Positions 16,156-47,903 of a stretch of 48,684 nt of DNA are shown here, piece by piece. A program made the translations under genes and the position numbers. The notes below the pieces were generated by a model, which saw only the letters and a program-made list of their open reading frames with translations, did not search any database and had not been told where the DNA came from. The DNA is from a virus: positions 1-48,684 of the IMG/VR virus record IMGVR_UViG_3300020171_000017; one strand, 5' to 3'. Position 1 is the stretch's first letter. Every line of letters starts with the position of its first letter.

Positions 16156-16184
16156 AATTTAACTTAAAGGGGGTGAAATACAAG

Positions 16185-20050: not shown

Positions 20051-20059
20051 GAGATGAAA

Positions 20060-21019
20060 ATGGCTGAAAAATGTAAAATAGGTATTGGAGCACCAACCTA
20101 TAACTCGGTAAAACGGTTAGAGATGTTACTTTCTTCGCTGGAACTTTATGGGGTAGATAGTTATGACGCACGAGTTGTGATCTTGGATGATGGTTCGCCT
20201 GATCCAGAGATGAGAAAAGGTGTTGAAGAACTCGCACTTCGGTTTGGTGCAGATTTTATTCAGCATGAAACTAATAAAGGTATACCTGCGGCGTGGAATT
20301 CGTTGACGGATCACTGTGATTGTCAATATATGATTTTACTAAATGACGATATTGCGGTTTCTCAAAATTGGCTGAGAAACTTTGTTTATTTTATGGATAA
20401 TAATCCACAAATCGGCAATGTTGGGTTTTCTATTGTGCATGTTGATCCCGTTACGATGTTGCCTGACAAAAGATTTACGCCACCTGATGAAAATTCTCCA
20501 CCTGGTCGTTGTGGCTCACCCAATGGCTGTAGCTTTGGCTTCCGTAAAGAATTATGGAAAAAGATAATTAATCATGACAATAGCCGGGGGTTTTGGGAAA
20601 ATCTGATCAGTTTTTATGAGGAATTATCGTTTTCTTTTGAGATAGCGAAGATGGGTTTCCATTCTTTTCAGTTACCTACACCACTTTTAGAGCATTTAGG
20701 TAGTCGTACTTTTGGTGAAAATAAAGAACTATCTACAAGACAAATAGGTTCCTATATTACAAAAGAAGAATATTTGCGTAGAATGAAAGAAAATAAAAAT
20801 TTATGGATACCGTTTGAACAACACGAGGAATTAGCCTTAAAACAAAATTTAGCCTTACGGATGGATTATTCAAGAATGATGTTTTCGAAACATTGGGGTG
20901 CGGATGATTATCTTTCTTCTCCACAAGTATTTGTACATTCTAAATATGTAGATATATTGCCAAAAATAGAGGTTAAATGGTTGGATAAAGATGGGAATGA
21001 GAGAAAGCAGCTGATATGA
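20060..21019 (+). CDS. GT2-family (GT-A) glycosyltransferase
   Basis: A 319-residue protein. AGGAG (20049-20053) is spaced correctly for ATG 20060, so I prefer this to ATG 20054. The N-terminus has the GT-A nucleotide-binding core GIGAPTYNSVKRLEMLL, VVILDDGSPDPE, and the metal-site DxD-like LLNDDIAVSQNW. A later acidic segment (FYEELSFSFEIAK) is in the place of the catalytic base. The enzyme transfers a sugar from a nucleotide-diphosphate donor. No membrane segment is seen, so it is cytoplasmic. The gene ends with TGA exactly at the left end of the inserted IS element, and its protein appears complete. Confidence 0.85.
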   Translation: MAEKCKIGIGAPTYNSVKRLEMLLSSLELYGVDSYDARVVILDDGSPDPEMRKGVEELALRFGADFIQHETNKGIPAAWNSLTDHCDCQYMILLNDDIAVSQNWLRNFVYFMDNNPQIGNVGFSIVHVDPVTMLPDKRFTPPDENSPPGRCGSPNGCSFGFRKELWKKIINHDNSRGFWENLISFYEELSFSFEIAKMGFHSFQLPTPLLEHLGSRTFGENKELSTRQIGSYITKEEYLRRMKENKNLWIPFEQHEELALKQNLALRMDYSRMMFSKHWGADDYLSSPQVFVHSKYVDILPKIEVKWLDKDGNERKQLI

Positions 21020-21058: not shown

Positions 21059-21463
21059 TTAGGTGCGTTGATTCTGTATATATTTCTTAACAATATCTAA
21101 AGGAGCACCGCCAGTGGAAACAGCGAAATATCCAGATGACCAAAGTGTGTGTAAATGTCTTCCGAAATATGGGAAGGCGTACTTATGTTTTAGATATGAT
21201 GATGATTTTGCTTTTAATGCACCTATAACATTTCCAAGTGTATCTTGTGGAGTTAATTCTAGAAGAAAATGCACATGGTCTGTATCTCCGTTTATTTCAG
21301 TAATTTTTACTAACATTTTTTCTGCCATATTCGGCAGTACAGCGATCAAATCTTTAAGAATATCGTGAGAAAGACAGTGATACCTAAATTTAGTGACCCA
21401 GACAACGTGGTAAGTAAGAAAGAACTTACAATGTGCCTTACTTTTAAGGTCGTCATATCTCAT
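21059..21463 (-). CDS. tnpA: IS200/IS605 Y1 transposase TnpA
   Basis: A 134-residue HUH single-strand transposase. The HUH motif is HVH (H63, H65 in DTDHVHFLLEL) and the catalytic Tyr is Y128 in VKKYIQNQ. The opening SKAHCKFFLTYHVVWVTKFR and the segment LWSSGYFAVSTGG are signatures of the family. The enzyme cuts and rejoins single-stranded ends at the subterminal hairpins and works as a dimer. Length is normal and there is no frameshift, so it may be active. Its 5' end overlaps that of tnpB on the other strand. It is the only clear minus-strand gene in the window. Confidence 0.95.
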   Translation of the reverse strand: MRYDDLKSKAHCKFFLTYHVVWVTKFRYHCLSHDILKDLIAVLPNMAEKMLVKITEINGDTDHVHFLLELTPQDTLGNVIGALKAKSSSYLKHKYAFPYFGRHLHTLWSSGYFAVSTGGAPLDIVKKYIQNQRT

Positions 21464-22510
21464 AAATTAACTCCTATTTTGGATTTGTTATACCAGAAAG
21501 CAAATGTATGTGTTAAAGAAATGTTAACGCATAGAGAACTTTCTTCTTCAAAATATTATAAAAGTATTCCGTGCGTACTTGCGAAATCTCTTATTACAAA
21601 ATATCAGAAAAATAAAAAGATTAAGATGGTTAGTAAGTTAGTATTACCTATATGTGGAGATAAAGGGAAACAAGTAAAACTTGTTAATGATGGAGTTCGT
21701 ATTCCTGCTATTTTTAAAAAAATAATAATACCAATAATTTTTCCTAAACCGATTGTTGGACATATTAGACAAGTTGAGTTCTTCAAAAGAAACAAAAAAT
21801 GGTTTATGTCCTACTCATATAATACTCTTATTATAGCACAACAAACAGTATTAAGTTATCTTGGAGTTGATAGAAATGCTGTAGGTAATGTTGCTACGAT
21901 TGCAGACTCTGCTACTGGCAAAGTTATGGTACTCGGATGCGATGTATCAAAAATAACAGAAAATTTTCGTAACCGCAGAAAGAATTTACAAAGGAAAGGA
22001 GCAAATCATGCATTAATAAAACTCAAAAGAAAACAAAGTAATAAGATTAAAGATATTAACCACAAAGTTTCCCGTACCATTGTTGACTATGCCAAAGTAC
22101 ATCGTTCCGCTATTGTGTTAGAAGATTTAGGGAATATTTCTAAAAAAGGTAAAGCCAAGAGATATGTACAGAGATCTCAGTGGTCTTTTTATCAATTAGA
22201 AATGTTTCTAAAATACAAAGCGGCTTTGCTTGGCATACCACTTTACTATATTAATCCTAGGTACACTAGTCGGATATGCAGTAGATGTGGCAGCCTCAAC
22301 TTACCAAATGGTAAGTGCTATAAATGCACATCATGTGGACACTTTGACCATAGAGATGCCAACGCTGCTTTCAATATATCAGCACAGGCAGATTTTCTCT
22401 GTAGGAGAACAGCAGTAGACAGAGTTGCTGCTGTGGGGCATATTGGTATTCCCCTAAACCAGAGAGTTGAGGAAGCAATGCAACTGGAATCGTTGGGCGG
22501 TGCCCGATGA
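21431..22510 (+). CDS. tnpB: RNA-guided nuclease TnpB
   Basis: A 359-residue protein from ATG 21431 (MCLTFKVVISH, the usual TnpB opening); an earlier in-frame ATG at 21365 is inside the antisense tnpA and is rejected. The RuvC site is complete: D147 in GVDRNAVGN, E231 in VLEDLGN and D309 in DHRDANAAFNI. A zinc ribbon (CSRCG...CTSCG) is present in full. TnpB uses an RNA made from the 3' end of the element to cut target-site DNA, which helps the element persist. It reads in the same direction as the surrounding operon and its TGA overlaps the next gene's ATG, so it can be translated within the operon transcript. Confidence 0.93.
   Translation: MCLTFKVVISHKLTPILDLLYQKANVCVKEMLTHRELSSSKYYKSIPCVLAKSLITKYQKNKKIKMVSKLVLPICGDKGKQVKLVNDGVRIPAIFKKIIIPIIFPKPIVGHIRQVEFFKRNKKWFMSYSYNTLIIAQQTVLSYLGVDRNAVGNVATIADSATGKVMVLGCDVSKITENFRNRRKNLQRKGANHALIKLKRKQSNKIKDINHKVSRTIVDYAKVHRSAIVLEDLGNISKKGKAKRYVQRSQWSFYQLEMFLKYKAALLGIPLYYINPRYTSRICSRCGSLNLPNGKCYKCTSCGHFDHRDANAAFNISAQADFLCRRTAVDRVAAVGHIGIPLNQRVEEAMQLESLGGAR
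22493..22507 (+). repeat. right-end hairpin of the IS element
   Basis: TTGGGC (22493-22498) pairs with GCCCGA (22502-22507), with one G-U pair and a 3-nt loop. It overlaps the last codons of tnpB. The 3' end of tnpB plus this region is where the guide-RNA scaffold is expected. Confidence 0.55.
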
Positions 22511-23130
22511 GTATCAAAATTGACCTGCATTTAAGAGAAGATATATTAGAGCATTTCCAAAATTTTGAATATTTCAACTGCAAAAATCCTGAAAGGCTAG
22601 ATTTTTCAAGAGTAGACAATATCACTGGCATCCAACAGGAGGCGTTCCTATTATATTGGATTTTAAAACAAATGCAAGAGCATGGTTGGGGGGTGGGGCT
22701 TGACATTGGTTGCGGCCAAGGTGCGCATTTCGGTTGTATCGGTTTAGATAAATATTACGGCAAGTCCCACCCCCAATACGGCGGTGAATATTTACCACAT
22801 ATTACATCCTTAGCAGAAAATATTACTTGTTTTAATGAAGGTACCTTCGGCTGGATCCTTGCGTCACATATTCTCGAACATGTTAATAATCCAGTAATTA
22901 CATTTCGTAGCTGGTTAAAACTGCTTCGTAAAAATGGCATTATAATTCTTTTGCAACCAGATGCAAATTTTGAGATTCCATGTCCGTGGGACCCAAGCCA
23001 TAAAAATTTTTACACACCAGAAGATTTCAGAAACAATTGCATATTGCCGAATCAAGATTTAATTCAAGAATTAGAATTTAATTCACTAAATAATAATTTC
23101 TCAATGAATTTTATCGGCAGGAGGATCTAA
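22507..23130 (+). CDS. class I SAM-dependent methyltransferase
   Basis: A 207-residue protein whose ATG overlaps the tnpB stop (ATGA). SAM motif I is GLDIGCGQGAHFG (about 58-70), an acidic loop follows (GLDKYYG), and motif IV/post-I is GTFGWILASHILEHVNNP, the type-11 methyltransferase pattern. The later LLRKNGIIILLQPD is the usual beta-5 strand region. The acceptor is unknown; in this setting a sugar hydroxyl or carboxyl is likely. The first residues (MSIKIDLHLRED) look native, so the IS insertion did not remove coding sequence. It ends three bases before the next gene. Confidence 0.85.
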   Translation: MSIKIDLHLREDILEHFQNFEYFNCKNPERLDFSRVDNITGIQQEAFLLYWILKQMQEHGWGVGLDIGCGQGAHFGCIGLDKYYGKSHPQYGGEYLPHITSLAENITCFNEGTFGWILASHILEHVNNPVITFRSWLKLLRKNGIIILLQPDANFEIPCPWDPSHKNFYTPEDFRNNCILPNQDLIQELEFNSLNNNFSMNFIGRRI

Positions 23131-23133
23131 AAC

Positions 23134-24153
23134 ATGAAGGTACTTATGCTAACTCACCCCGAACAAGATTACGGAGAATTTTTTCTCTTTTCTGGGCTAA
23201 TCAATTTATTAGGTGAAGATAATCTTATTGTATATCCACAAAAGTTATCATATATGGGTTTTGCGGATACTTCTTATTTATTGCATAATGAAAACAAACG
23301 GGGCATGACTTGTCCTGCTAGTTATGTAGTGCTAAAAAAGCTGCGTATATATCCGTTTGAAGAAATAGTAGATGAGATGTCTAGTATAGATTTAATTGTA
23401 TTAGCATCGCCGAGACATTATGCGATACATGCATTACAGTTTATAAAACAGATTTATGGCAATATACCGAAGCCATTAGCTTTTGTTGATGGCGAAGACG
23501 GCGACAATATACGAGAAGATTTAATTGAAGAATTTAAACCGCAATTTATATTTAAACGTGAATTGCGATACCCGATACCTAATATACATCCTTTACCATT
23601 TTCATCTTGTCTGCCTTATTTGCCTTATTTTGAAGAATTAAAATCTATGCCAAAGACACTTGATGTTTTCGCTTTATTCGGCAATACGCATCAAATACGA
23701 GTGGATGTAATACAGTTTTTATTAGAACAAAATCTGCCTAATTCATATATAGGCATAGATACAAACGCTTTACCTTGGCAAAATGAGAACAGATTTAAAA
23801 TACCGCCGTTAGTAGGGTATGAAGTATACTTAAGAAAGATGGCTTCGGCGAAGATAAACATAGTCTTGCGTGGTCATGGCCGAGATACAGTAAGATATTG
23901 GGAAGCGGCCAATGTAAATTCTCTTATGTTGATAAAAGATCCAGGGATTATTATCCCGCATCCGTATATCGATAAAGTGCATTGTGTTTATTTTGATGAA
24001 TTAAATGATTTACGAGAAAAGATAGATTATTACTTATCGCATGAAGATGAAAGGCTGGCGATAGCTAATAACTGCTTTGAACATACTATGAAATATCATA
24101 CAAATGAAAAAAGAGCCGAACAATTTTTAGAAACAATAAAAAATAACCTATAA
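23134..24153 (+). CDS. CgeB-like GT-B glycosyltransferase
   Basis: A 339-residue protein behind AGGAGG. The C-terminal third (RYWEAANVNSLMLIKD...HCVYFDELNDLREKIDYYLSHEDERLAIANN) has the pattern of the CgeB/Glyco_trans_1_2 family: an E-A-(A/C) donor-site helix, then a tail of D-E-R repeats and a final helix with H. The N-terminal half is a Rossmann-like acceptor domain (MKVLMLTHPEQDYGEFF). The following gene encodes a related enzyme with the same tail design. The family is cytoplasmic; members glycosylate spore coat, flagellin or lipopolysaccharide. Acceptor unknown. Confidence 0.7.
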   Translation: MKVLMLTHPEQDYGEFFLFSGLINLLGEDNLIVYPQKLSYMGFADTSYLLHNENKRGMTCPASYVVLKKLRIYPFEEIVDEMSSIDLIVLASPRHYAIHALQFIKQIYGNIPKPLAFVDGEDGDNIREDLIEEFKPQFIFKRELRYPIPNIHPLPFSSCLPYLPYFEELKSMPKTLDVFALFGNTHQIRVDVIQFLLEQNLPNSYIGIDTNALPWQNENRFKIPPLVGYEVYLRKMASAKINIVLRGHGRDTVRYWEAANVNSLMLIKDPGIIIPHPYIDKVHCVYFDELNDLREKIDYYLSHEDERLAIANNCFEHTMKYHTNEKRAEQFLETIKNNL

Positions 24154-24154
24154 A

Positions 24155-25264
24155 ATGCGAATTTTGATAGCTAATACAGAGTTTGAAGACAGAGAATATT
24201 CATCAAGTGACAGTTTAATTCAGGCTTTTAAAGATCTTGGGCATGAAGTTATTACGTGTGGCGCGAAACTCGGTAATTTTGAAGGTGAAATGTTGAGTAA
24301 AAGAGATGTTAAAGTATACGATAGCAGGGTGCATCCTGAAATTTATTCTTATGATCATATTTTACAGCAATGTGATAAAGCGCCTGATCTGATTTTACAG
24401 GTAGATCCGCATTTTTATTTTATAGGAGAAAAACCTAAAGGCATAAAATGCGCATATTATATTGTTGATGTGCATCGTGGCGCCGAAGTATTTAGAAAAA
24501 TGGCTATAACAGGCAAGTTTGATTATGTGTTTATAGCGCAAAAATATTTTATGCCGCATTTTAAAAGAATAGGATTAAACTGTTATTGGTTACCGCGCGC
24601 GTATGATGACATATATATAAAAGAATATGAAGATGTTAATATTGAATGTGATATTTCGTTTTGCGGCGAAACAGGATTGCACAGCACTTTAAATACATTT
24701 AATGACATAGATGAGCAATTACAATTAACATATCATAAAGATGCGTATGAACTAATTTCGTCAGATTTACGTTATCGCAGTTGGGAAAATCATACTATGG
24801 AATATGCTGAACGCGCAGAAATATTTACTAGATTATCAAGAGATTTTAATTTAAGAATATATGCTAAATCTTATGGGTCAAAATACGCGCAAGCGATATG
24901 TCGAGGCAAAATAACTGTAAACCATAGTTTATGGAAAGATTCGGCCTTACGTAATTTTGAAGTATTAGCGTGCAATAGATTTTTAATTTCTGATTATATA
25001 CCTTTTCAAGAAAAGTTATTATTAGATAAAGTGCATTATAGGTCATATAATCAATCTTTTAGGCCTTTTTTACAGAATTTTGATTTAGAATATGAAGAAA
25101 TAAAAATGCTGGTTGATTATTATTTAAATAATGATGATGAACGAAATAAGATTATTCAGCAAGGTAATGAATTTGTAAAGAAGTATCATACTTTTAAACA
25201 TAGAGCACAAACTATTATCGATACTGTTAATGGAAAATGCGATGGATATATTAAACCCTATTGA
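24155..25264 (+). CDS. CgeB-like GT-B glycosyltransferase
   Basis: A 369-residue protein starting one base after the previous stop. The start MRILIANTEFEDREYSSSDS and the segment CDISFCGETG match the domain join seen in CgeB-type enzymes. The end is LRNFEVLACNRFLISDYIPF, then LVDYYLNNDDERNKIIQQGN and a final KHRAQTIID, the family's donor-site helix and closing helices. It shares this ending with the preceding protein, suggesting an old duplication with different acceptor halves. The last 35 bases overlap the radical SAM gene in another frame. Confidence 0.8.
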   Translation: MRILIANTEFEDREYSSSDSLIQAFKDLGHEVITCGAKLGNFEGEMLSKRDVKVYDSRVHPEIYSYDHILQQCDKAPDLILQVDPHFYFIGEKPKGIKCAYYIVDVHRGAEVFRKMAITGKFDYVFIAQKYFMPHFKRIGLNCYWLPRAYDDIYIKEYEDVNIECDISFCGETGLHSTLNTFNDIDEQLQLTYHKDAYELISSDLRYRSWENHTMEYAERAEIFTRLSRDFNLRIYAKSYGSKYAQAICRGKITVNHSLWKDSALRNFEVLACNRFLISDYIPFQEKLLLDKVHYRSYNQSFRPFLQNFDLEYEEIKMLVDYYLNNDDERNKIIQQGNEFVKKYHTFKHRAQTIIDTVNGKCDGYIKPY

Positions 25265-26258
25265 TCCAATAAAAATAATTATGCATAAAGATAAAATTAT
25301 GCAGATTATTAACAACGAATTGCCGTTGCCTATTACCGTAGGTTTAGATATTTCTAATTATTGCAATAATGATTGTGTTTGGTGTTTATTTAAAGAGTAT
25401 CGTAAAAATCATTTATGCAATATGCCGAAAGATTTGATTTTTAAAACCCTTCTTGATTTAAAAAATGCGGGTGTTTTTGCGGTATGCCTTTCAGGCGGCG
25501 GTGAACCGACGATGGATGTGGTATGTAATGATACAATATTATACGCAAAAGAGGTAGGATTAGATATTTCTCTTAATACAAATGGCGTGTTACTTGATAC
25601 CATTAGTGATGATGCTATTAAGGCATTAACCTATCTTCGAGTAAGCCTTGATGCAGGTTCTAATGAAACGCATAATTTATTACATCAACCAAAAGAAAAA
25701 GATAGTTTCAATAAAATCATCTCTGTATTAAAAACCATTTGCGCTAAAAAATTAACGACTGTTGGTGTAGGATTTTTAGTACATCAATTAAATTGCCATG
25801 AAATTTTAGCTTTAACTAAAATTCTTGATGATATTGGCTGTGATTATTTGCAGGTTAGGCCGCTTAAAAATATTGTTTTAGATAAAGATAGTGAAGAAAA
25901 GTTTTTAGAACAACTTGTTTTGATTAAGCAGCAACTAAAGATAAAAGTTTTTGAAACTTTCACTAAAATGGAAGATACAATAAATAAGAAAGTTTGTTTT
26001 TCTAATTGTTATGTAAAATATCTTGTTTCTAATATAGGTCCTGATGGATATGTATATCCATGTTGTGAATTGCGCGGTGTTAAACCGATAGGCAATATAA
26101 AATATGACAGTTTTTTTGAAATATGGCATTCATCTAATCATAAAAATATTTTAAAGAATATTGATATAGTTAATTGTCCACCTTGTAAATATGCTAAAAC
26201 TAATGAAATAATAGAGAAATATATAGTAAATGATCCAATCCACAGAAATTTCATATAG
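25230..26258 (+). CDS. radical SAM/SPASM enzyme
   Basis: A 342-residue protein. The radical SAM cluster is CNNDCVWC (CxxxCxxC, about residues 46-53), followed by the SAM-binding SGGGEPTMD. The C-terminus is a SPASM-type auxiliary-cluster domain (CFSNCYVKYLVSNIGPDGYVYPCCE...GNI...IW, then CPPCK). Such enzymes do radical chemistry on peptides or sugars, for example dehydrogenation, epimerisation or carbon-carbon bond formation. The start at 25230 overlaps the previous gene by 35 bp; an internal ATG at 25242 is possible. In this block it may remodel a sugar or aminosugar precursor. Substrate unknown. Confidence 0.88.
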   Translation: MENAMDILNPIDPIKIIMHKDKIMQIINNELPLPITVGLDISNYCNNDCVWCLFKEYRKNHLCNMPKDLIFKTLLDLKNAGVFAVCLSGGGEPTMDVVCNDTILYAKEVGLDISLNTNGVLLDTISDDAIKALTYLRVSLDAGSNETHNLLHQPKEKDSFNKIISVLKTICAKKLTTVGVGFLVHQLNCHEILALTKILDDIGCDYLQVRPLKNIVLDKDSEEKFLEQLVLIKQQLKIKVFETFTKMEDTINKKVCFSNCYVKYLVSNIGPDGYVYPCCELRGVKPIGNIKYDSFFEIWHSSNHKNILKNIDIVNCPPCKYAKTNEIIEKYIVNDPIHRNFI

Positions 26259-26849
26259 ATGGAAGAAATAACTGAAATTCTTAAAGGTACACTTCTTGAT
26301 TATTCAAATCTCGTGCGGCATTCTGATGATATGTATAAAATAGAACGCATGCAGCATAGGCTTCAGTGGTTAAAAGAAAATAGTTGCGGCAGAATCATTG
26401 AAGTAGGTTGTGCTACAGGTTATGTTTTGAATTATGTGAATGGTCATGTCGGCATTGACACAGATAGAGAAAGGTTAAAAGTTGCGAAAACACGTTGCCC
26501 TAATTTAGAATTTTATTTATGTGATGCACAGAAGATAGATTTTCCCGATAAATTTTTTGATACAGTATTGTTGCCGGAAATCCTTGAACATATGCCGTTT
26601 GATAAAAGCATTAAAGTATTCGAAGAAGCGGTTAGGTTAGGGAATTGTGTTATATTCACAGTTCCGAAAGCTGGTGGAGAAGAAGATAGAAATAAGAATC
26701 CCGAACATTTTTGGTTGGCTACTGATTATGAAGTAAAACAATTAATGAAAGAGAGAAAAATTACCGCGAAATTTGAATCTGATGATTTCTTTTTCATAAA
26801 AATAAATAGTTCTATCCACAAAAATTTCGTGTACGGAGAACAGAATTGA
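26259..26849 (+). CDS. class I SAM-dependent methyltransferase
   Basis: A 196-residue protein starting directly after the radical SAM stop. Motif I is IIEVGCATGYVLNYV (about 45-59), the acidic residue after strand 2 is in GIDTDRERLKVA, and DTVLLPEILEHMP is the type-11 motif IV. It is a compact single-domain enzyme. Its stop overlaps the TTG start of the ATP-grasp gene (TTGA), so the radical SAM, methyltransferase, ATP-grasp and epimerase genes form a tightly coupled series. The substrate is probably a sugar-linked intermediate. Confidence 0.85.
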   Translation: MEEITEILKGTLLDYSNLVRHSDDMYKIERMQHRLQWLKENSCGRIIEVGCATGYVLNYVNGHVGIDTDRERLKVAKTRCPNLEFYLCDAQKIDFPDKFFDTVLLPEILEHMPFDKSIKVFEEAVRLGNCVIFTVPKAGGEEDRNKNPEHFWLATDYEVKQLMKERKITAKFESDDFFFIKINSSIHKNFVYGEQN

Positions 26850-27877
26850 AAAATATACTCGTTTTAAGCGCGGGTGGTTCAGCAAGCACTAATTTTATCA
26901 GATCATTAAGGTTATCAAGTGAAGAATTTAATATTGTCGGCACTGATTCAAATAAATATTATATACAAAGATCAGAAGCAGCAAAAAGTTACTTAATACC
27001 TTTATGCATAGATCAAGGTTATATACCTGCATTAAAACAGATTGTTAAAAAAGAGAAGATAGATTTTATGCATTTACAAAATGACAGGGAAATATCGGTT
27101 ATTTCAGAAAATAGAAAAGAATTTAAAAATAAATTGTTTTTGCCTGATAAAGAAACAATTAGAATTTGCCTTGATAAATATAAATCATATTTAAAATGGA
27201 AAAATATAGTGCCACAGCCAAAAAAGTTTCTTATAAAAACAAAGGCTAATTTAAAAACCGCGTTTAGTTTATTAAAAGATGAAAAATGGTTAAGAGAAAT
27301 TACAGGCGCAGGCGGCAGAGGGTCATTAAAAACAACTGATTTTGATGAAGCTTTTTATTGGATTAATAAACATAATGGTTGGGGTAAATATGAAGCAGCT
27401 GAATTCTTATCTGATCAATCAATTACCTGGTCATCTATATGGCAAGATGGTAAATTAATTGTTGCCCAAGGCAGAAAGAGGCTGTTCTGGGAGTTAGCTG
27501 CAAATACATTATCAGGTGTAACTGGTTCTACAGGCGGCGCGGTAACAATTTCAGATAAAGCGTTAGATGAAATAGCAGAAGCAAGCATTCTTGCGATCGA
27601 TAAAAAACCACATGGAATATTCTCGGTAGATCTGACCTATGATAGAAATGGTGTGCCAAATGTTACGGAAATTAACATCGCCAGGTTCTTCACTACTATT
27701 CTTTTTTTTACAGAAGCAGGCTTAAACATGCCTTTGATATATACAAAACTTTTTTTTAATGAAGAAATTAAAATTGATAAAAAATACAATCCATTATCGG
27801 ATAATTATGCATGGATTCGCGGCATGGATTTTTTGCCTAAATTATTAACCCCAGAAAAATTTGAAAATTTAAAATGA
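26846..27877 (+). CDS. ATP-grasp carboxylate ligase (carbamoyl-phosphate-synthase-like)
   Basis: A 343-residue protein with a TTG start (26846) behind CGGAGAA. The N-terminal pre-ATP-grasp domain starts MKNILVLSAGGSASTNFIRSL, with GTDSNKYY. The central part has the ATP-binding REITGAGGRGS loop. The C-terminal metal site is FSVDLTYDRNGVPNVTEINIARF, with acidic and Asn residues at the expected places. ATP-grasp enzymes join a carboxylate to an amine or thiol through an acyl phosphate. In a glycan block it could add an amino acid to a uronic-acid or amino sugar. Normal length, no truncation. Confidence 0.85.
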   Translation: MKNILVLSAGGSASTNFIRSLRLSSEEFNIVGTDSNKYYIQRSEAAKSYLIPLCIDQGYIPALKQIVKKEKIDFMHLQNDREISVISENRKEFKNKLFLPDKETIRICLDKYKSYLKWKNIVPQPKKFLIKTKANLKTAFSLLKDEKWLREITGAGGRGSLKTTDFDEAFYWINKHNGWGKYEAAEFLSDQSITWSSIWQDGKLIVAQGRKRLFWELAANTLSGVTGSTGGAVTISDKALDEIAEASILAIDKKPHGIFSVDLTYDRNGVPNVTEINIARFFTTILFFTEAGLNMPLIYTKLFFNEEIKIDKKYNPLSDNYAWIRGMDFLPKLLTPEKFENLK

Positions 27878-28815
27878 AAAATATTATTGTTGGTGGCGCG
27901 GGTTTTATAGGCAGTTATTTAGCCGATTCTTTAATTTTAAGAGGCAATGAAGTTGTTGTGATTGACAATCTTTTTTCTGGTAATTTAAAAAATCTAGATT
28001 TTATTAAAGGCAGTAAAAAGCTTAAGATTTATAAAGAAGATTTTATTGATATAAAAAAAATGCGGTCTATTTTTAAAAAAGAAAAACCTGATATGCTGTT
28101 TAATTTAGCTACGGCAGGTTTAATCAGGGCTCTTGAAAATCCAATATGGTGTTTTGATCAAGAAATTAGATTAGCAGAAACAGCATGCCAACTATTAAAA
28201 GAAGGATTAGTTAAACAAATGGTGCATTTTTCTACTTCTGAGGTATATGGCAATGTTGGTATGCCGGTAATAGATCCAGAATATTCAAGGACAGAGCCGA
28301 CTACAACTTATGCCGCAGGCAAATTAGCCGCCGATCATCTTATATCGGCAATGGTTGATTTAAATGCTGTTATTATACGATCATTTAATAATTTTGGCAG
28401 CAGGCAGCATAATTTAAAGTATCAAGGCATTATACCAAAGACTATAAATTTATTAAGGCAGAATAAACATGTAACAATTTATGGCGATGGCAGTCAAACA
28501 AGGGATTTTATTTATGTAGGCGATACAATTAACCGATTATTTATAATTTTAAGGCATCATTTTGCTTTGTCTAAAGAAAATCGCAGAAAAATCTATCATA
28601 TTTGTTCAGAACAAGAAGTATCTATATTGAAATTAGTTGAGATGATTGCTGGAATCGGGAATTTTGATTTAAAAATTGATTTTGTTGAAGAAAGAAAAGG
28701 TGAAATAAATCGATTAACAGGTAAGCAAACCTTGATAGAAGGAGAAGTATTGCCGAAAGCAGCTCTTTTAGAAGATGTAATAAGAAATTTAATTAACCAA
28801 AGGGGATTTTCATGA
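27874..28815 (+). CDS. NAD-dependent sugar-nucleotide epimerase/dehydratase
   Basis: A 313-residue extended short-chain dehydrogenase. The NAD-binding GGAGFIGSYLAD starts at residue 7, the acidic residue VVIDNLFSG ends strand 2, FSTSEVYG is the active-site Ser/Thr region, and Y-AAG-K (TTYAAGKLAADH) is the catalytic Tyr/Lys pair. RSFNNFGSRQ and GDGSQTRDFIYVGD are the substrate-binding motifs of UDP- or dTDP-sugar enzymes. It acts as an epimerase, dehydratase or decarboxylase on a nucleotide sugar; which one cannot be read from the motifs. It overlaps both neighbours by ATGA. Confidence 0.9.
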   Translation: MKNIIVGGAGFIGSYLADSLILRGNEVVVIDNLFSGNLKNLDFIKGSKKLKIYKEDFIDIKKMRSIFKKEKPDMLFNLATAGLIRALENPIWCFDQEIRLAETACQLLKEGLVKQMVHFSTSEVYGNVGMPVIDPEYSRTEPTTTYAAGKLAADHLISAMVDLNAVIIRSFNNFGSRQHNLKYQGIIPKTINLLRQNKHVTIYGDGSQTRDFIYVGDTINRLFIILRHHFALSKENRRKIYHICSEQEVSILKLVEMIAGIGNFDLKIDFVEERKGEINRLTGKQTLIEGEVLPKAALLEDVIRNLINQRGFS

Positions 28816-29765
28816 AAGTCGCAATTTTAGGTGCATCAGGTTTTACAGGCAGAAATTTATTGTTAAATTTACCTAAAGATTGGCAGATTTATGCATTTTT
28901 CAATACTGACAAAACATTTCAAGATTGGGTAATTAAGAAAAATATAAAAGTAATACCGATTAAAGTTAATTTATCTGATACCTTTATTATATTAGGTAAA
29001 GATATTCCTAACCATTTTGATTTAGTAATATCGCTTATAGGCAATACACAAAGAGTGGCAATAGAAGAACAACCGTTATATGATTTTAATGCCGATACAT
29101 TTGCCATAAGTAATTTTTTTAGTAACTTTACTTGTGATAAGTGCATTTATTTTTCAAGCGGCGCGGTTTATGAAAATCATGTAGGCCTTGTTTCAGTAGA
29201 TAAAACAAAAGGCCTGAAACCAACGATGTCGTATCCAATAGCTAAATTAACTAGTGAATATATCATTTCTCATTTTCATTGGCGTAATCGGATAAATCAA
29301 TATTTGATAGTCAGATTTTTTGGTGCGTATGGCCCGTATCAAAAGAATAATAAGATAGTTCTTTCTACGATTAAAAAATTATTTATTGATAAAGAAAAAG
29401 AATTAAATTTTACAGGTACAGGCAAAAATTTGTTTGACGCCATGTATGTGCAAGATGCTATAGATTGGATATTATTAGCTGTGCAGAAAGAATTTAAAAA
29501 TCAAACTATAGATTTTGGATTGGCAAAACCTATAACAATTAAACAACTGATTAAATCAATTGCAAAAGCCTGTGATAGAAAAGATGTAGTTATTAATTTT
29601 GATGGTTTGCCGCCAAAAGAAGATTATTATTTTAGGTTAGGTGATGAAAATTTTACTGTATTACCGCCATTTGGTTATAAATTTAAAGTTAGTTTAGAAA
29701 AAGGGCTGGTATTAACAAGAGATTGGATATTGAAAAATGTAGATATTTTATGGCCGAAGAATTAG
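28812..29765 (+). CDS. NAD-dependent epimerase/reductase
   Basis: A 317-residue SDR-fold enzyme with GASGFTGRN near the N-terminus, the active-site strand IYFSSGAVYE and the catalytic pair in SYPIAKLTSE (Y-x3-K). The domain 2 motifs are RFFGAYGPYQ and FDAMYVQDAIDW. It is more divergent than the epimerase just upstream and resembles reductase- or synthase-type members that finish deoxysugar pathways. The two may act in sequence on one nucleotide sugar. A later ATG at 29774 starts the next methyltransferase after a strong AGGAGG. Confidence 0.85.
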   Translation: MKVAILGASGFTGRNLLLNLPKDWQIYAFFNTDKTFQDWVIKKNIKVIPIKVNLSDTFIILGKDIPNHFDLVISLIGNTQRVAIEEQPLYDFNADTFAISNFFSNFTCDKCIYFSSGAVYENHVGLVSVDKTKGLKPTMSYPIAKLTSEYIISHFHWRNRINQYLIVRFFGAYGPYQKNNKIVLSTIKKLFIDKEKELNFTGTGKNLFDAMYVQDAIDWILLAVQKEFKNQTIDFGLAKPITIKQLIKSIAKACDRKDVVINFDGLPPKEDYYFRLGDENFTVLPPFGYKFKVSLEKGLVLTRDWILKNVDILWPKN

Positions 29766-29773
29766 GAGGAATA

Positions 29774-30727
29774 ATGCAAAGAGATTATCTTAGCGAAAAA
29801 GCGATTAGAGAATTAGAAGAACGTTGGCAGGCTGATTACCGTTGGATTGATGAATATGATCGTTATATGAAAGGTGATTTAGATCCAGTTATCAATAGAT
29901 ATTATGAAACGACCAAAGATTATAATATTGATATTTACGCTATTAATTTTGATCACGCAGGCATAGGTATGGAAGATTCGTTTTTTAGAGATAATATTTA
30001 TCCAATGCCTAAAAATAAAAATATCTTAGATATCGGCTATGGTTATGGGGCTTTTTTAAGAAAAGTAGAGCCTAATAATAAATTTGTGGCAGGTATAGAT
30101 ATTGGCATGAACGGATTTAAAATGTGCAAAGATTTAGTGGATAAAAGAGTGGCTTTATTGTATTTAGATATTTCCCGCGAGAGAATGCCGTTTTGTGATA
30201 ATACTTTTGATATAGCAAATATTACTGAGACTATTGAACATGTTGATAATCCTTTTTGGGTTTTTTCTGAAATTAAACGAGTAATGAAAGATAACGGCCA
30301 TTTGATTGTTACATTTCCAGAACAAGAAGATCAAGCAGGTGCCTGGGGCGGTGAACATTTACATTTATATCCAGGATTATTTAGAAGGTGTGATTTTAGA
30401 AGGTTTATGATGCAGTTGTTTTTTAAATTAATTTCATATAGTGAAAATGGCGGTACAGGTAAATTTATTTTTAAAAATATTAAAGAAAGGTATGTCAACG
30501 CTTATTGTGTCGCAAAAGGCGATTTTAAAGCTAATTTAGTATATGAACGAATCCGTAATTGGGATGAAGATTTAGAACAACCTATTCCTGCGCATCCACA
30601 TAATAAAGAATTGCAGCCAGGCCAACAAAAACCTCGGCTTGTTATAGATGAAAGAGTTGATATACAAAAAGAAATGGCATGGGTATTTGATGCTAATACG
30701 ACAGAACCGCCAAAAATGGAGTTTTAA
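29774..30727 (+). CDS. class I SAM-dependent methyltransferase
   Basis: A 317-residue protein. An ATG at 29723 lies inside the previous gene, but AGGAGG at 29764-29769 fits ATG 29774, so I use that start. Motif I is ILDIGYGYGAFLRKV, with Tyr in place of a more usual Cys or Ala. The acidic GIDIGMNGFKM and the type-11 DIANITETIEHVDNPFWV follow. An extra N-terminal region of about 85 charged residues and a C-terminal extension of about 70 residues (Pro-rich, HPHNKELQPGQQKPR) distinguish it from the compact enzymes nearby. The substrate is not evident. Confidence 0.85.
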   Translation: MQRDYLSEKAIRELEERWQADYRWIDEYDRYMKGDLDPVINRYYETTKDYNIDIYAINFDHAGIGMEDSFFRDNIYPMPKNKNILDIGYGYGAFLRKVEPNNKFVAGIDIGMNGFKMCKDLVDKRVALLYLDISRERMPFCDNTFDIANITETIEHVDNPFWVFSEIKRVMKDNGHLIVTFPEQEDQAGAWGGEHLHLYPGLFRRCDFRRFMMQLFFKLISYSENGGTGKFIFKNIKERYVNAYCVAKGDFKANLVYERIRNWDEDLEQPIPAHPHNKELQPGQQKPRLVIDERVDIQKEMAWVFDANTTEPPKMEF

Positions 30728-30730
30728 AAA

Positions 30731-31507
30731 ATGTTAAATATTTCGATTATTATTCCTATTGGTTCACGCAATGCAATGTTAAAATGGTGTGTAAAAACAA
30801 TTCGTGAAAATTCTGTCAATTCTAATCATGAGATTATTGTAGGTTTTGATAGGATTCGTGTCGTAAAAGATATGTCAAAACCAATAGAGAATCAGCCTGA
30901 ATCTATAATCAAATGGCACGAACTGCCGTCTAAAGAGTTATTAGATTTTTTAGAAAGGTATAACTGTAAATGCTACAATTTAGGTGAATTAGGCGATCAT
31001 TACCGCGATACTAATGCTTGTGTAAGGTATTGTTCAAATGAATGGATGAACTTCATGCATAACGATATTTATTGCGCTAAAAATTGGGATTTAGGCGTAA
31101 TGAACGCTATAGAAAGTGGTTTCGCAGTTAATCATGATATTATTATTCCTAATAGCTTGCCTGATCATGCGCAGCCTGCTGGCATAGCGCATCAAACTGT
31201 GATTGACGTATTTAAAAGTGATTTTATAAGTTCTCAAGAAAAAGAGATTTATACTTTTAATGATGCTAAAGTAGAAGCTTTTATTAAACTATTTTCTAAA
31301 CCAGGCCAATATTTTAAAGAGTTGGAAAGAAATTTGTCATGGGTGTGTCCTATTACTATCAAAAAAGATAGTTTTATTAAAGCTGGAATGTATCCTGTAA
31401 AAGAGCCGTTTCCATTTGGCAATGATTTAGCGTTAGATAGAGCTATAACTGATAAACTACGTGGTAATAAAATTGTGCCGTTAGATAGTTTCATTTGGCA
31501 TCTATAG
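30731..31507 (+). CDS. GT2-like glycosyltransferase
   Basis: A 258-residue GT-A-fold protein. The opening LNISIIIPIGSRNAMLKWCVKTI is a typical GT2 start. The DxD position is replaced by MHNDIYCAKNWD, and LDRAITDKL lies near the end where the catalytic base helix is expected. It is short but ends properly before the next gene. The next gene encodes another GT2 protein with a similar opening (NFSIILPTRYRSKMMEY), so the pair may be distant paralogues. Cytoplasmic; donor and acceptor unknown. Confidence 0.8.
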   Translation: MLNISIIIPIGSRNAMLKWCVKTIRENSVNSNHEIIVGFDRIRVVKDMSKPIENQPESIIKWHELPSKELLDFLERYNCKCYNLGELGDHYRDTNACVRYCSNEWMNFMHNDIYCAKNWDLGVMNAIESGFAVNHDIIIPNSLPDHAQPAGIAHQTVIDVFKSDFISSQEKEIYTFNDAKVEAFIKLFSKPGQYFKELERNLSWVCPITIKKDSFIKAGMYPVKEPFPFGNDLALDRAITDKLRGNKIVPLDSFIWHL

Positions 31508-31515
31508 GAAAATTT

Positions 31516-32331
31516 ATGAACTTTTCAATTATTTTACCGACAAGATACCGTTCAAAAATGATGGAATATTTTTTGTATTCATTAAAAAGAAACAGCGTTT
31601 TTGAGCATGAAGTTATTGTTATATGCGATATATTTACTAGTTGGCAGACATATAAGTATTTACAAGAACATAATATATTTTATTACCAAGTTGATTATTG
31701 CAACTGGTATAAAATGTTAAATTTCGGCGCAGATAAAGCAAAGAATGAATACCTCGCTTTATGTCAAGATGATGTTTTGTTTGGCTATCATTGGGATGAG
31801 CTGTTACAAAGATATTTACATAAATTAAATATGATAGCGCCTACTTTTTTAGAACATGTGAATGGCCATTATTTTGGGTCATATGACAAAGACAATGTAA
31901 GGCATTTAGAAGATTTTAATTTTGATGAGTTTGATTCATATTGTAAAGCACATAGTAACGCGCCTTTACACGGTGACGTAAAACATCCTATGATCATACA
32001 TAAAGAAACTTTTAATCAGTTAGGTAAATTTACATGTTTTACAGGCCAAGAAAGAGTGCATTTGCATCATGAATCTGGTTTTAAGTTTAGGTTACAGCAA
32101 ATTGGTGGACAAGCATTTGGTGTAGGCAATTCTTTTATATACCATATACCTAATGTTGGATATGATCAAAACATACCGAGATATGGTTATGATTTTTATC
32201 AGGGTCCAACTCATATACCTTTAGAATGCAAGAAATGTGGTTTTAAACAGGCAGGCAGTGAACTGACTAGTAAAGAGTTAGATGATGCTATTAATAGAGG
32301 ATATTGGATATGTCAAACATGCAGGAAGTGA
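31516..32331 (+). CDS. GT2-like glycosyltransferase with a C-terminal zinc ribbon
   Basis: A 271-residue protein from ATG 31516, behind AGGAAAA; an upstream TTG at 31495 overlaps the previous gene and is rejected. The GT-A core is SIILPTRYRSKMMEYFL, with the metal site in LALCQDDVLFGYHWD. An unusual tail (about 232-271) carries CKKCG and CQTC, two CxxC pairs that make a zinc ribbon, a feature rarely seen on glycosyltransferases. The ribbon could contact nucleic acid or a partner protein. His-rich segments (VHLHHESG) occur before it. Confidence 0.8.
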   Translation: MNFSIILPTRYRSKMMEYFLYSLKRNSVFEHEVIVICDIFTSWQTYKYLQEHNIFYYQVDYCNWYKMLNFGADKAKNEYLALCQDDVLFGYHWDELLQRYLHKLNMIAPTFLEHVNGHYFGSYDKDNVRHLEDFNFDEFDSYCKAHSNAPLHGDVKHPMIIHKETFNQLGKFTCFTGQERVHLHHESGFKFRLQQIGGQAFGVGNSFIYHIPNVGYDQNIPRYGYDFYQGPTHIPLECKKCGFKQAGSELTSKELDDAINRGYWICQTCRK

Positions 32332-33137
32332 TGTCCAGAAATTTTGATGATGATCTTTATGAGTTTACAGGGAAAAGACAATCTGATTATCAAGAGATAC
32401 GCGATAAATTTGAGCAGCAATACGGCATTAATGGGTTAGATCCATATTGTTTGACAGATGTTGATTTAACTTCGCCTACGCATAAAGGTTTAATTGATGC
32501 TTATAATGATCCAATATTCAATGCGTATGTTTATAGTTATAACGGTATTTTCCCTAAAACATTGCCGATAGATTATCCTAATTTAGAATCAGAACCTGTT
32601 ATTGGAAAATTTTTAAATCGGCCAAATGAAATTCTTAAAGGCAATCGGTTATTAGAATACGGCTGTGGCGGTTGTAATACGGCATTTATGTTTTGGTTGG
32701 CTGGTTTTGATCTTACTTTATGTGATTTGCCTTTAGATTGGCTGAAATTTTTAGAATGGAGAATAAAAAAATATGAAGTACCGAGAATAAAATTTATATA
32801 CATAGAAGATAATGCGTCATTTTTGCCTGATAATGAAATGTTTGATTGTTTTTATACGCATGATGTTTTTGAGCATGTAGTTAATCCTGCCTGGGCTTTA
32901 TTTCATATTTCACAACATATAAAACCTGGTGCGTTAATTTATATAGAATTAAAGTTTCATTCTGGCGGTTTTCATTTAGCAGTTGACTATAATAAATTTA
33001 ATTTAGAAAAAGATAAAATAAGCAATGAAGACGGCAATCAGTTATGGCGCGATGTTATTAATATGTGCGATATCGTGCCTGTACCTCTTAATTGGCAATA
33101 TCCACCATATTTTTTTAGAAAGTTATGGAAAAATTAA
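32331..33137 (+). CDS. class I SAM-dependent methyltransferase
   Basis: A 268-residue protein. ATG 32331 shares its A with the previous TGA and has AGGAAG just upstream; a TTG at 32304 is less likely. Motif I is LLEYGCGGCNTAFMFWLAGF, the acidic LCDLPLDWLKF follows, and the type-11 motif is DCFYTHDVFEHVVNPAWAL. The tail GALIYIELKFHSGGFHLAVD is typical of O-methyltransferases with a His near the active site. It is coupled to the genes on both sides. The acceptor is probably a sugar. Confidence 0.85.
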   Translation: MSRNFDDDLYEFTGKRQSDYQEIRDKFEQQYGINGLDPYCLTDVDLTSPTHKGLIDAYNDPIFNAYVYSYNGIFPKTLPIDYPNLESEPVIGKFLNRPNEILKGNRLLEYGCGGCNTAFMFWLAGFDLTLCDLPLDWLKFLEWRIKKYEVPRIKFIYIEDNASFLPDNEMFDCFYTHDVFEHVVNPAWALFHISQHIKPGALIYIELKFHSGGFHLAVDYNKFNLEKDKISNEDGNQLWRDVINMCDIVPVPLNWQYPPYFFRKLWKN

Positions 33138-34174
33138 TGTTGACTAACGAAAAAATTAATCAATGTTTTATTGAGCATCCAGATTTTGAATTTATGTATA
33201 AATATATGATTTCATTGCAGCAGCATCAGACATACGCGATATGCGATTGGCGGTGTCAAGACGGCCTTTTTGGTGTTGCGTTAGCGGCTAATAAATTTAA
33301 TAATGTTACTTTAATTGATGAACCGCCAAATTATTATGAGTTATATGAAAATTATAAAGGTAAAAATATAACTATCCATAATCTTAATGATAAATTACAA
33401 CCACAAGATATATTTGATGTCATTATTTGCAGGGATTTTGATTGGATTATTGAAAATAAAGATTGGCGGAAAGAACTGGATTTTTTAATTGAACATTTGC
33501 GTGTTGAAGGTTTGATGTATATTTTAAGTAAAAATGAAAAAGTATTGCATCAAATTGATGAAGATAATTGCATTTATCTGCAAAGAAGAGGATATGATAG
33601 ACATGGCTGGCCGACTATTTTTGAAAAAATAGTTGATTTTGAGTATGGTTTACAAAGGTTTAATTATCTTAACCGCCAGATAGTAGGAGAAGCGCAAAAA
33701 GAAGTGTTACGCAACTGCGTATTTAATTTTGCCGAAGAAAAACAGCCTATTTTAGTTATTGGCGGTCCAGCAGGCGAGATGCCGTTCCCAGTAAAAGTAA
33801 TAACATTAAATATCCAAGGGCAGAGTGATTTTGGCAATATTAGAGCTGATCGGCCATTGCCGATTGCTGATAATTCTATAGGACTGATTGAATCTAGCCA
33901 CGTTTTAGAACATTGTGAAGATACTTTAGCCACTTTAAAAGAATGGATGCGTATACTTAAACCTGGTGGTATAATGCTGCATATAGTGCCAGATAAACGG
34001 TATCATCAACATCTTATGGATGAAAATTTTAAAATAGGTGACCGTTGCTTTGTGCAATTTACAGCTGATGAATTATTCGATATTGTGAAACAAATACCGA
34101 ACGCAGAGATAATACAATTTAATACTAAACAAAATAAGTTTGATATCGATTTAATTATAAGGAAAAAAAAGTGA
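33125..34174 (+). CDS. two-domain methyltransferase with a degenerate first domain
   Basis: A 349-residue protein with two Rossmann-like halves. The N-terminal half (about 1-185) has a methyltransferase-like rhythm (TYAICDWRCQDGLFGVALA, LIDEPPNYYELY, DVIICRDFDW) but lacks the GxGxG loop. The C-terminal half has the type-11 features SIGLIESSHVLEHCEDTLATL and LKPGGIMLHIVPD; its motif I is reduced to VIGGPAGEMPF. Neither half has a canonical SAM loop, so activity is uncertain. It overlaps the previous gene by 13 bp and is coupled to the mutase gene by GTGA. Confidence 0.65.
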   Translation: MEKLMLTNEKINQCFIEHPDFEFMYKYMISLQQHQTYAICDWRCQDGLFGVALAANKFNNVTLIDEPPNYYELYENYKGKNITIHNLNDKLQPQDIFDVIICRDFDWIIENKDWRKELDFLIEHLRVEGLMYILSKNEKVLHQIDEDNCIYLQRRGYDRHGWPTIFEKIVDFEYGLQRFNYLNRQIVGEAQKEVLRNCVFNFAEEKQPILVIGGPAGEMPFPVKVITLNIQGQSDFGNIRADRPLPIADNSIGLIESSHVLEHCEDTLATLKEWMRILKPGGIMLHIVPDKRYHQHLMDENFKIGDRCFVQFTADELFDIVKQIPNAEIIQFNTKQNKFDIDLIIRKKK

Positions 34175-35346
34175 AAATAATAGGTTTAGGCGCTGGTTTA
34201 GCAAATTGTATGTTAGGTTATTGGTTAATAAAACAAGGGCATGAAGTTGTTTTAATAGATAAAAATTCTTCACCTGGCGGGATGTGCAGAACATTTTATT
34301 ATGAAGATTTAACTTATGAATATGGACCTCATATTTTATATACAAATGAAAAAGAGGTTTTAGATTTTTTTAGTTCTTTTGTTGGTTTTGTGCCAAACGA
34401 ATTTTATTTATCGACACAGGTAGAAAATACAATTTTAACATATCCGCCGTATTTAGATGAAATATCTCAATTGCCTTCTGGTAATATTATTATGCAAGAA
34501 TTAAAAAACTTGCCGCAAGATGTTGACGAGACTAATTTTGAAACTTTTTTAATATCTTGTGTAGGTAAAAAAGCGTATACTTTATTTTTTGAAGATTTTA
34601 CCAAGAAGTTTTGGAATGTGCATCCGTCACAACTATCCGCAAATTGGGCGAAAACAAGAGAATTGAGATTAAAAACAAATGCTGATAAAAAAGCGTTTTC
34701 TGCTAAGTATCAAGGATATCCAGCTGCCAATTACACAGAATTGATTAAAGTATTAGTTGAAAAGATATCTATTATACGAGGCAATATTATCGGTTTTGAT
34801 AATGGCGTTATTTTAGATACAAATAAAAAGATACAAGGTGATTTTTATATTAACAGTATACCGATAGATGAATTGTTTAATAAAGAGTTCGGCGAATTAG
34901 AGTTCGCTGGATTTAATTTACAACTTGATGTTTATAATAAAAATTATGAATTGCCTACGCATCAAACAGGCAATAAAACAGCTTGGATGTATTTTCCATC
35001 TCAAGATGTGCCGTATACAAGAAAATGCGAATATAAAACTATTACGCAAAAGAAGAATGAAAGAACACTTATCGGTACTGAAATACCGATGCGTGGGATT
35101 AAATTATATCCATTTTATGACAATGTAAATGAATTAAGGTTTAATCAATATTTAAATAAAACGTGTAATCTAGATAATTTTATTACTTTAGGTAGGTTAG
35201 GCCTGTTTATTTATACTACTATGGGAAATACTTATATGATGGTGAAAGAAGTACTACAACTAATTGATAAATGGCAGATGTATACAAATGTAGAAAGGCG
35301 TAATACTTTATTAGATATAAGAAAATTAGCGGCTAAAGGTGCATAA
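34171..35346 (+). CDS. UDP-galactopyranose-mutase-like flavoprotein
   Basis: A 391-residue protein with a GTG start inside the previous stop. The FAD site is IIGLGAGLANCMLGYWLI, with the acidic VLIDKNSSPGG. GLF-family features follow: YEYGPHILYTNEKEV, then KYQGYPAANYTELIKVL, and GRLGLFIYTTMGNTYMMVKEVL at the end. UDP-galactopyranose mutase converts UDP-galactopyranose to the furanose form, the donor for galactofuranose polymers. The match is to the family; protoporphyrinogen-oxidase-like amine oxidases share the FAD fold but not the later motifs. It suggests a furanose sugar in the phage-made glycan. Confidence 0.75.
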   Translation: MKIIGLGAGLANCMLGYWLIKQGHEVVLIDKNSSPGGMCRTFYYEDLTYEYGPHILYTNEKEVLDFFSSFVGFVPNEFYLSTQVENTILTYPPYLDEISQLPSGNIIMQELKNLPQDVDETNFETFLISCVGKKAYTLFFEDFTKKFWNVHPSQLSANWAKTRELRLKTNADKKAFSAKYQGYPAANYTELIKVLVEKISIIRGNIIGFDNGVILDTNKKIQGDFYINSIPIDELFNKEFGELEFAGFNLQLDVYNKNYELPTHQTGNKTAWMYFPSQDVPYTRKCEYKTITQKKNERTLIGTEIPMRGIKLYPFYDNVNELRFNQYLNKTCNLDNFITLGRLGLFIYTTMGNTYMMVKEVLQLIDKWQMYTNVERRNTLLDIRKLAAKGA

Positions 35347-35360
35347 AAAGGAGAATAAAA

Positions 35361-36350: not shown

Positions 36351-36363
36351 ATTTTTAATATTT

Positions 36364-38553: not shown

Positions 38554-38574
38554 ATGTCTAAAATTGAATGTTAA
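38554..38574 (+). CDS. six-codon leader ORF overlapping the next start
   Basis: ATG follows the terminator's T run and encodes MSKIEC, ending TAA at 38572-38574. It overlaps ATG 38568 of the glycosyltransferase, which has no Shine-Dalgarno site of its own, so the gene may depend on reinitiation after this mini-ORF. The portal gene after copy 1 also opens MSK. Expression is inferred. Confidence 0.35.
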   Translation: MSKIEC

Positions 38575-42014: not shown

Positions 42015-42243
42015 AAACCGTGAGCCTGTTTCTGAAAAAATTATGGATATTAAAGATTACGAAGGGCATCATTCTATTTGCCAATTTTTAAGAGATATTT
42101 ACCATAAAACCAATGATGAAGAGATAAAACTAAAATGCCGTGTGGCGGTAGCAATGGCAAAAGCGATGAACGAAAAGCTAAAATGGTATAAAGCAAAAGA
42201 TTTGGGGATACCTGTTAGCACTATGCCTGATTTAGAAGAATGA
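42004..42243 (+). CDS. small helical hypothetical protein
   Basis: A 79-residue protein overlapping the methyltransferase by 11 bp and the GT17 gene by ATGA. The sequence is mostly helical and charged (EIKLKCRVAVAMAKAMNEKLKWYKA) with no known family. The tight coupling on both sides suggests a small partner protein for one of these enzymes. No signal peptide or membrane helix is present. Confidence 0.65.
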   Translation: MPYKNREPVSEKIMDIKDYEGHHSICQFLRDIYHKTNDEEIKLKCRVAVAMAKAMNEKLKWYKAKDLGIPVSTMPDLEE

Positions 42244-47873: not shown

Positions 47874-47903
47874 ATGTGTAGAACTATGTTTATTAGGAGG
47901 TGA
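47874..47903 (+). CDS. nine-residue leader ORF whose AGG AGG codons form the next ribosome-binding site
   Basis: ATG 47874 right after the terminator encodes MCRTMFIRR and ends with TGA at 47901-47903. Its last two sense codons are AGG AGG, which are also the Shine-Dalgarno site (47895-47900) of the gene at 47906. Tandem AGG codons are slow in many bacteria, so ribosome position here could control access to that site. Inferred only. Confidence 0.35.
   Translation: MCRTMFIRR

Follow-up and report, generated by a model that had tools for sequence, protein, structure and literature searches.

The virus record IMGVR_UViG_3300020171_000017 (IMG/VR), which stems from an uncultured phage, carries an island of about 25 sugar genes and, within it, a closely packed series of six that encodes a radical SAM/SPASM enzyme, an ATP-grasp ligase, two extended short-chain dehydrogenases/reductases (SDRs) and two methyltransferases. 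The window referred to below is the whole stretch analyzed, bases 1-48684 of the 135529-base record. We consider it an even prospect that the island is an exchangeable glycan-building unit between the capsid and neck-region genes of a tailed-phage lineage and yields an unusual, amide-bearing sugar destined for a phage protein. A more far-reaching idea, to which we give distinctly less credence, is that of a phage "serotype locus," an exchangeable island in a fixed place between these genes whose varied, complex, amide-bearing and methylated glycans, assembled in the cytoplasm, would coat a mucin-like, serine-rich virion protein, with the radical SAM enzyme as a swappable module.

The six-gene series, its island and its relatives

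All six open reading frames (ORFs) lie on the plus strand: the radical SAM/SPASM gene (rSAM, 25230-26258), a class I methyltransferase gene (MTb, 26259-26849), the ATP-grasp gene (ATPg, 26846-27877), the two SDR genes (EpiA, 27874-28815, and EpiB, 28812-29765) and a second class I methyltransferase gene (MTc, 29723-30727). The corresponding Pfam calls were radical SAM plus SPASM for rSAM, a class I methyltransferase for MTb, a PylC-like N domain for ATPg, NAD epimerase/dehydratase for both EpiA and EpiB and a methyltransferase for MTc. None of the five junctions leaves a gap (0, -4 at TTGA, -4 at ATGA, -4 at ATGA and -43 nucleotides [nt]), which bears out the tight coupling of these enzyme classes put forward in a preliminary description of this DNA; the -43-nt EpiB/MTc overlap depends on a TTG start for MTc, and a later start of that gene is possible. 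Equally tight junctions flank the series (-35 and +3 nt), and 24 of 28 junctions are at most 45 nt between 17750 and the conserved gene to the right of the island (47900-48415, plus strand), which we call the neck-type gene by position only; it has the same place in relatives, and a phrog search with it gave no match. The six genes are an arbitrary slice of an island of about 27 kb (17750-44743), and there is nothing special about their boundaries. The island comprises glycosyltransferases, methyltransferases, SDR enzymes, a UDP-galactopyranose mutase and a GDP-mannose dehydratase, recognized by Pfam or in a few cases by eye, and it sits in the virion gene block, with protease and capsid genes (phrogs) to the left of 17.2 kb.

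A scan with the capsid protein gave nine viral loci at 63 to 79% identity. Six of these continue past the capsid gene as our record does, with the small gene and then the two-domain glycosyltransferase; two of the remaining three end soon after the capsid gene, and the third (L215) ends slightly past the small gene. The distance from the capsid gene to the neck-type gene is about 31 kb in the sister phage G531 (a record of 175 kb, with L210 and L213 giving the same gene list) and about 4 kb in G534, where only the first glycosyltransferase and the SDR EpiC are present. By blastp, the sister shares ATPg (41%), EpiA (50%), EpiB (46%), MTc (45%), the glycosyltransferase-like GT2c (45%), the CgeB-type CgeB1 (70%), EpiC (57%) and the GDP-mannose dehydratase (71%), among others. 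Its ATP-grasp, EpiA, EpiB and MTc genes form one run, with a HAD phosphatase adjoining the ATP-grasp gene. No match to rSAM, MTb or the UDP-galactopyranose mutase was found in the sister island by blastp; the single match to rSAM in the whole sister record scored 41 bits and lies about 80 kb away, and the sister island carries a different radical SAM protein of 262 residues. Since the sister has these four genes without rSAM and MTb, the series consists of a shared core (ATPg, EpiA, EpiB and MTc) and an add-on (rSAM and MTb). The preliminary description had all six enzymes acting on one intermediate, and this view found no support in the comparison with the sister or with cellular ATP-grasp loci, none of which (0/72) has a radical SAM match above 25 bits. 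The neighborhood comparison suggested there thus split the series, with rSAM and the ATP-grasp apart in relatives and the ATP-grasp/EpiA/EpiB/MTc genes remaining linked.

Predicted chemistry of the core and the add-on

The ATP-grasp domain of ATPg itself gave no Pfam match, and its NCBIfam matches, to proteins like carbamoyl phosphate synthase (CPS), were below the cutoff (PRK12767, 69 bits against 218). The AlphaFold2 model (pLDDT 93.3) matches the ATP-grasp fold over the whole chain, the best solved structure being the CPS-like ATP-grasp protein 2pn1 (Z 28.2, root mean square deviation [rmsd] 2.3, 284 aligned), with PylC at Z 26.5 and amino-acid ligases at about 26; carboxylate-amine ligases and carboxylases have this predicted fold. 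In the viral structure library the model had distant ATP-grasp matches only. There are 71 cellular homologues at 41 to 55% identity; of the 90 positions conserved in 90% or more of these, the phage enzyme retains 83. These homologues sit in nucleotide-sugar loci. Among the 70 of 72 loci counted (two without an intact ORF were dropped), the commonest partner was a HAD phosphatase within 3.5 kb (54 loci), an SDR lay directly downstream in 47, a DegT aminotransferase was found within 7 kb in 34, and FdtA occurred somewhere in the locus in 36. One Woesearchaeota genome has an SDR-HAD fusion directly after the ATP-grasp gene (L094:10291-11772). Radical SAM proteins at E<=1e-15 were present in 4 of 50 ATP-grasp genomes examined from the 72. 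In a tree, the two phage ATP-grasps group, on long branches, with one archaeal and one Wildermuthbacteria sequence (96/94). No record in the annotated phage collection matches ATPg; single-protein scans of viral contigs were blind to the family rather than negative, and an alignment query later gave seven loci, three of them in records already obtained through the capsid gene. Three short viral contigs (L232:4104-5701, L233:36-1566 and L234:1631-3192) encode an ATP-grasp of this family at 29 to 30% identity, followed by a methyltransferase-like ORF and lying among terminase-, portal- and capsid-like ORFs as judged by eye.

EpiA and EpiB both retain GxxGxxG and YxxxK, and their genes are neighbors in this record and in the sister; less similar versions also adjoin each other in the viral contigs L237 and L238. 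The order in L238, mostly with short overlaps, is head-tail-like ORFs, DegT, an N-acyltransferase-like ORF, an EpiA-type SDR, EpiB and a glycosyltransferase-like ORF, of which only DegT was confirmed by Pfam and the rest were assigned by eye. This order suggests that the ATP-grasp and the N-acyltransferase are alternatives, and that the former may stand in for the latter. Another locus, L229, holds DegT pieces, an SDR, the ATP-grasp and a second SDR together. The closest precedent that we found for such a role, likened to ATPg by reaction alone, is PglB2 of Neisseria. In the available part of the account, PglB2, an ATP-grasp/phosphoglycosyltransferase, leads to a glyceramido sugar and PglB, an acetyltransferase, to an acetamido sugar, so that in the pathway to GATDH an ATP-grasp replacing an acyltransferase gives a sugar amide; unlike ATPg, PglB2 is described there as joined to a phosphoglycosyltransferase domain (PMC11130364).

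The rSAM protein has a CxxxCxxC motif whose cysteines are invariant in 46 alignment rows, and Pfam scores above the cutoff for radical SAM (57 bits) and SPASM (37.9 bits). Among the NCBIfam radical SAM equivalogs, including peptide maturases, the cutoff was reached for no listed family (best 85.6 bits against a cutoff of 380). Its AlphaFold2 model (pLDDT 89.5) is nearest to DesII (Z 27.3, rmsd 3.7, 329 aligned), followed by BlsE (Z 25.4) and SkfB (Z 25.2), which are tied, and SuiB is also among the structural neighbors. DesII and BlsE act on sugars; the likeness of rSAM to them is one of predicted fold over nearly the whole model, whereas the sequences are only 15 to 19% identical. Relatives of rSAM occur in 7 annotated phage records, in 75 viral contigs and in 7/245 and 13/237 genomes of two phyla (E<=1e-30), often in glycan loci. 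Four same-strand neighbors were scanned at each of 18 of the 78 viral loci, the higher-scoring ones after dereplication, and these 72 neighbors included 10 family 2 glycosyltransferases, 6 members of a methyltransferase family, 4 epimerases and one each of UDP-galactopyranose mutase, NeuB and carbamoyltransferase. In one podovirus the rSAM relative lies two genes past the capsid gene. Single-protein scans of viral contigs with rSAM gave zero matches. A C-terminal HxNF motif seen in the first rSAM alignment was present in only 9 of 76 sequences and is not claimed. One neighbor of a viral rSAM gene (L014:166-1707) combines a glycosyltransferase match with an intein and an HNH domain, and two genomes of one phylum encode a radical SAM protein, an SDR and a radical SAM protein consecutively (L190:8640-11703 and L191:8397-11459).

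From these features of gene content, packing, conservation and predicted fold, together with the variation among relatives and the lack of membrane helices described below, we infer a substrate, a product and an acceptor. EpiA and EpiB would act on a nucleotide sugar and remodel it; the ATP-grasp enzyme would couple a small carboxylic acid to a sugar amine as an amide. Because no DegT aminotransferase was found in the record, the amine would have to be supplied by the host or by another enzyme. The radical SAM enzyme would alter the sugar ring, probably while the sugar is nucleotide linked, and MTb would methylate it. The soluble glycosyltransferases of the island would then assemble the glycan in the cytoplasm and attach it to a soluble phage protein. 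The preliminary description had likewise favored an unusual sugar, and this part of it gains support from the glycosyltransferases, UDP-galactopyranose mutase and GDP-mannose dehydratase of the island, from the nucleotide-sugar loci of the cellular ATP-grasp homologues and from the proximity of the rSAM model to DesII and BlsE.

The proposed acceptor and competing explanations

None of the 25 island proteins has a membrane helix or strong hydrophobic segment in a simple hydropathy scan (1 of 27 in the sister island), whereas by the same scan a polytopic protein is encoded in 37 of the 49 cellular ATP-grasp loci that exceed 15 kb, which makes a soluble acceptor likely. The membrane flippase and polymerase of a Wzx/Wzy locus therefore have no candidates among these 25 proteins, and neither is there the intergenic space, nor among the listed small ORFs an evident precursor as judged by eye, of a cluster for ribosomally synthesized and posttranslationally modified peptides. 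With no adjacent peptide gene and no membrane helix, a sugar built in the cytoplasm for a soluble acceptor is more probable than either a modified peptide or an exported polysaccharide.

Judged by composition and by its place beside the island, the protein encoded at 44744-47752 (plus strand) is the most promising single candidate for the acceptor, and the capsid protein would come next. Of the 640 residues in its Ser-Pro repeats, 298 are serines. The sister has a counterpart in the same place with a related N terminus (28%, without composition correction) and C terminus and a different serine-rich repeat, and in L227 a third serine-rich protein gene precedes the neck-type gene, separated from it by a single HNH-like ORF; three lineage records thus have such a protein just upstream of that gene. 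An ORF reaching the 40% serine threshold was found at 4 of 20 lineage loci, 0 of 78 other viral loci and 0 of 92 cellular loci. At the level of genes, the arrangement is that of serine-rich repeat glycoprotein loci, with a serine-rich gene next to glycosyltransferases, and also that of phage virion glycosylation, with glycosyltransferase genes beside virion genes. A 504-residue antisense ORF (45886-47400, minus strand) mirrors the Ser-Pro repeat and is most likely a repeat artifact.

A variant that deserves some weight, if less than an even share, has the core making the sugar as proposed, the serine-rich tract serving as a flexible linker, and the capsid protein or another virion protein acting as the acceptor. 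In the proteins of the sister and of G534, serine-rich tracts lie between apparent binding domains, and the G534 gene is located elsewhere; against this, the proteins at this position next to the island stay serine rich although their repeats differ. It is rather unlikely that the island instead remodels the host surface, for example the O antigen, during infection and so excludes other phages. Related enzymes do occur in bacterial glycan loci, and this role was proposed for pelagimyophage glycosyltransferases in the available text of PMC7029224, but the 25 island proteins include no membrane transferase, flippase or polymerase, and the island lies within the virion gene block. That position also argues against a glycan on phage DNA, for which the available part of PMC12619734 offers the precedent that phage glycosyltransferases can act on DNA; no thymidylate-synthase family protein was found in the record, and we regard this explanation as improbable.

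Equally improbable in our estimation is that rSAM and the ATP-grasp modify a residue in a peptide or protein, by analogy with peptide natural products. The SPASM-type radical SAM domain, the presence of SkfB and SuiB among the structural neighbors and an ATP-grasp fold near amino-acid ligases would fit it, but the two enzymes are unlinked in relatives, the neighbors of rSAM relatives in phages and cells are often glycan genes, and there is neither a precursor gene nor intergenic space to hold one. The peptide linked to the glycan that the preliminary description offered as its alternative is disfavored on the same grounds. A pyrrolysine-like pathway, in which a radical SAM enzyme, a PylC-like ATP-grasp and an NAD enzyme would make an unusual amino acid, is scarcely credible: the PylC-like N domain and the structural match to PylC speak for it, whereas rSAM carries a SPASM domain, its model lies close to enzymes acting on sugars or peptides, and its separation from the ATP-grasp in relatives applies here as well.

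Several observations weigh against an amide-bearing sugar on a phage protein. Profiles for HAD, FdtA, DegT, GFO and RmlA gave zero matches in the 135529-base record, and Pfam found no DegT in the sister either, in a search whose control was detected in 14 of 14 cases; with no DegT, HAD, FdtA or RmlA homologue found in the record, the sources of the amine and the acid are left unexplained. The SDR encoded directly after the cellular ATP-grasp found no support as an ortholog of EpiA or EpiB in a tree of 43 of 44 and 24 of 27 cluster members, selected by length, in which 42 of 43 cellular SDRs form a clade without the phage SDRs and the phage branches are long. The peptide maturase SkfB matches the rSAM model as well as BlsE does and little below DesII. 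The serine tracts may be mere linkers, the serine-rich gene of G534 lies between portal and protease genes, and several relatives stop short of the neck-type gene, which makes them uninformative on the acceptor. Finally, the authors of the pelagimyophage study, in the part available, favor modification of the host O chain for similar genes (PMC7029224).

Flanking genes, precedents and meaning

The other genes of the region are all on the plus strand. The major capsid protein gene (16173-17198, phrog_3990) forms the left flank, and the first, conserved glycosyltransferase gene of the island (17750-20050; 766 amino acids, two GT4 domains, phrog_2170) is the one kept in six relatives. It is followed by the glycosyltransferase GT2a (20054-21019, by phrog; sister 46%) and, after a 345-nt gap, by a TnpB-like gene with a Cas12f1-like TNB domain (21365-22510, a phrog transposase). 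A methyltransferase and two CgeB-type glycosyltransferases (22507-25264, Pfam; sister 62% and 70% for the first two) lie directly upstream of the six genes. Downstream are GT2b, GT2c, MTd and MTe (30731-34174), two glycosyltransferase-like proteins and two methyltransferases assigned by Pfam except for GT2b, for which the Pfam scan gave no match; MTd is 33% identical to its sister counterpart. Next come the UDP-galactopyranose mutase, EpiC, an HNH-like ORF and the GDP-mannose 4,6-dehydratase (34171-38414, Pfam), and then further glycosyltransferases and methyltransferases (38568-44743; GT2, GT17, Methyltransf_24 and others by Pfam, some by eye). The HNH-like ORF (36364-37452) is cysteine rich, was recognized by eye and has no Pfam match, and similar ORFs occur elsewhere in the record and in L227. 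The EpiC of the smallest-island relative (L217:13756-15837) has a long intein-like insertion near the active-site serine, as judged by eye. Other possible surface proteins are two adjacent, similar 117-residue proteins (6445-6798 and 6807-7160) and the 1195-residue protein with a concanavalin-like domain that follows them.

Virion glycosylation in mycobacteriophages was reportedly described by Freeman in 2023. In Gram-positive bacteria, serine-rich repeat adhesin loci place a serine-rich protein beside glycosyltransferases, as here, where its glycosylation is only predicted. Virion glycosylation of mycobacteriophages is also stated in the available part of PMC12619734. Our record resembles that system in its phage glycosyltransferase genes and a distantly related capsid protein, but here about 25 sugar genes are gathered in a single island, those for radical SAM, ATP-grasp and SDR enzymes among them. 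The hypervariable region of pelagimyophages likewise contains glycosyltransferases and radical SAM cassettes, which differ from one close relative to the next; according to the available portion of that paper it goes with tail fiber genes, in contrast to the capsid-to-neck position seen here, and the ATP-grasp/EpiA/EpiB module was not met in that portion (PMC7029224). Bacterial O-antigen and capsule loci share exchangeable glycan genes between fixed flanks and a related ATP-grasp, whereas the present island is phage carried and lacks membrane export or polymerization proteins. Phage glycosyltransferase islands and virion glycosylation are already known; what is new is the ATP-grasp/EpiA/EpiB module, the fact that it is exchanged inside a single lineage, and the serine-rich neighbor, and in the open-access literature we found no paper on the module or on this neighbor.

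If our proposal is true, some phages produce an intricate sugar coat themselves and diversify it, much as bacteria diversify their capsules. This would matter for the recognition of virions, and compact, soluble sets of enzymes for rare sugars would become available. A widespread, poorly characterized ATP-grasp family would also be tied to a testable reaction, and the work gives two phages whose islands differ by defined modules.

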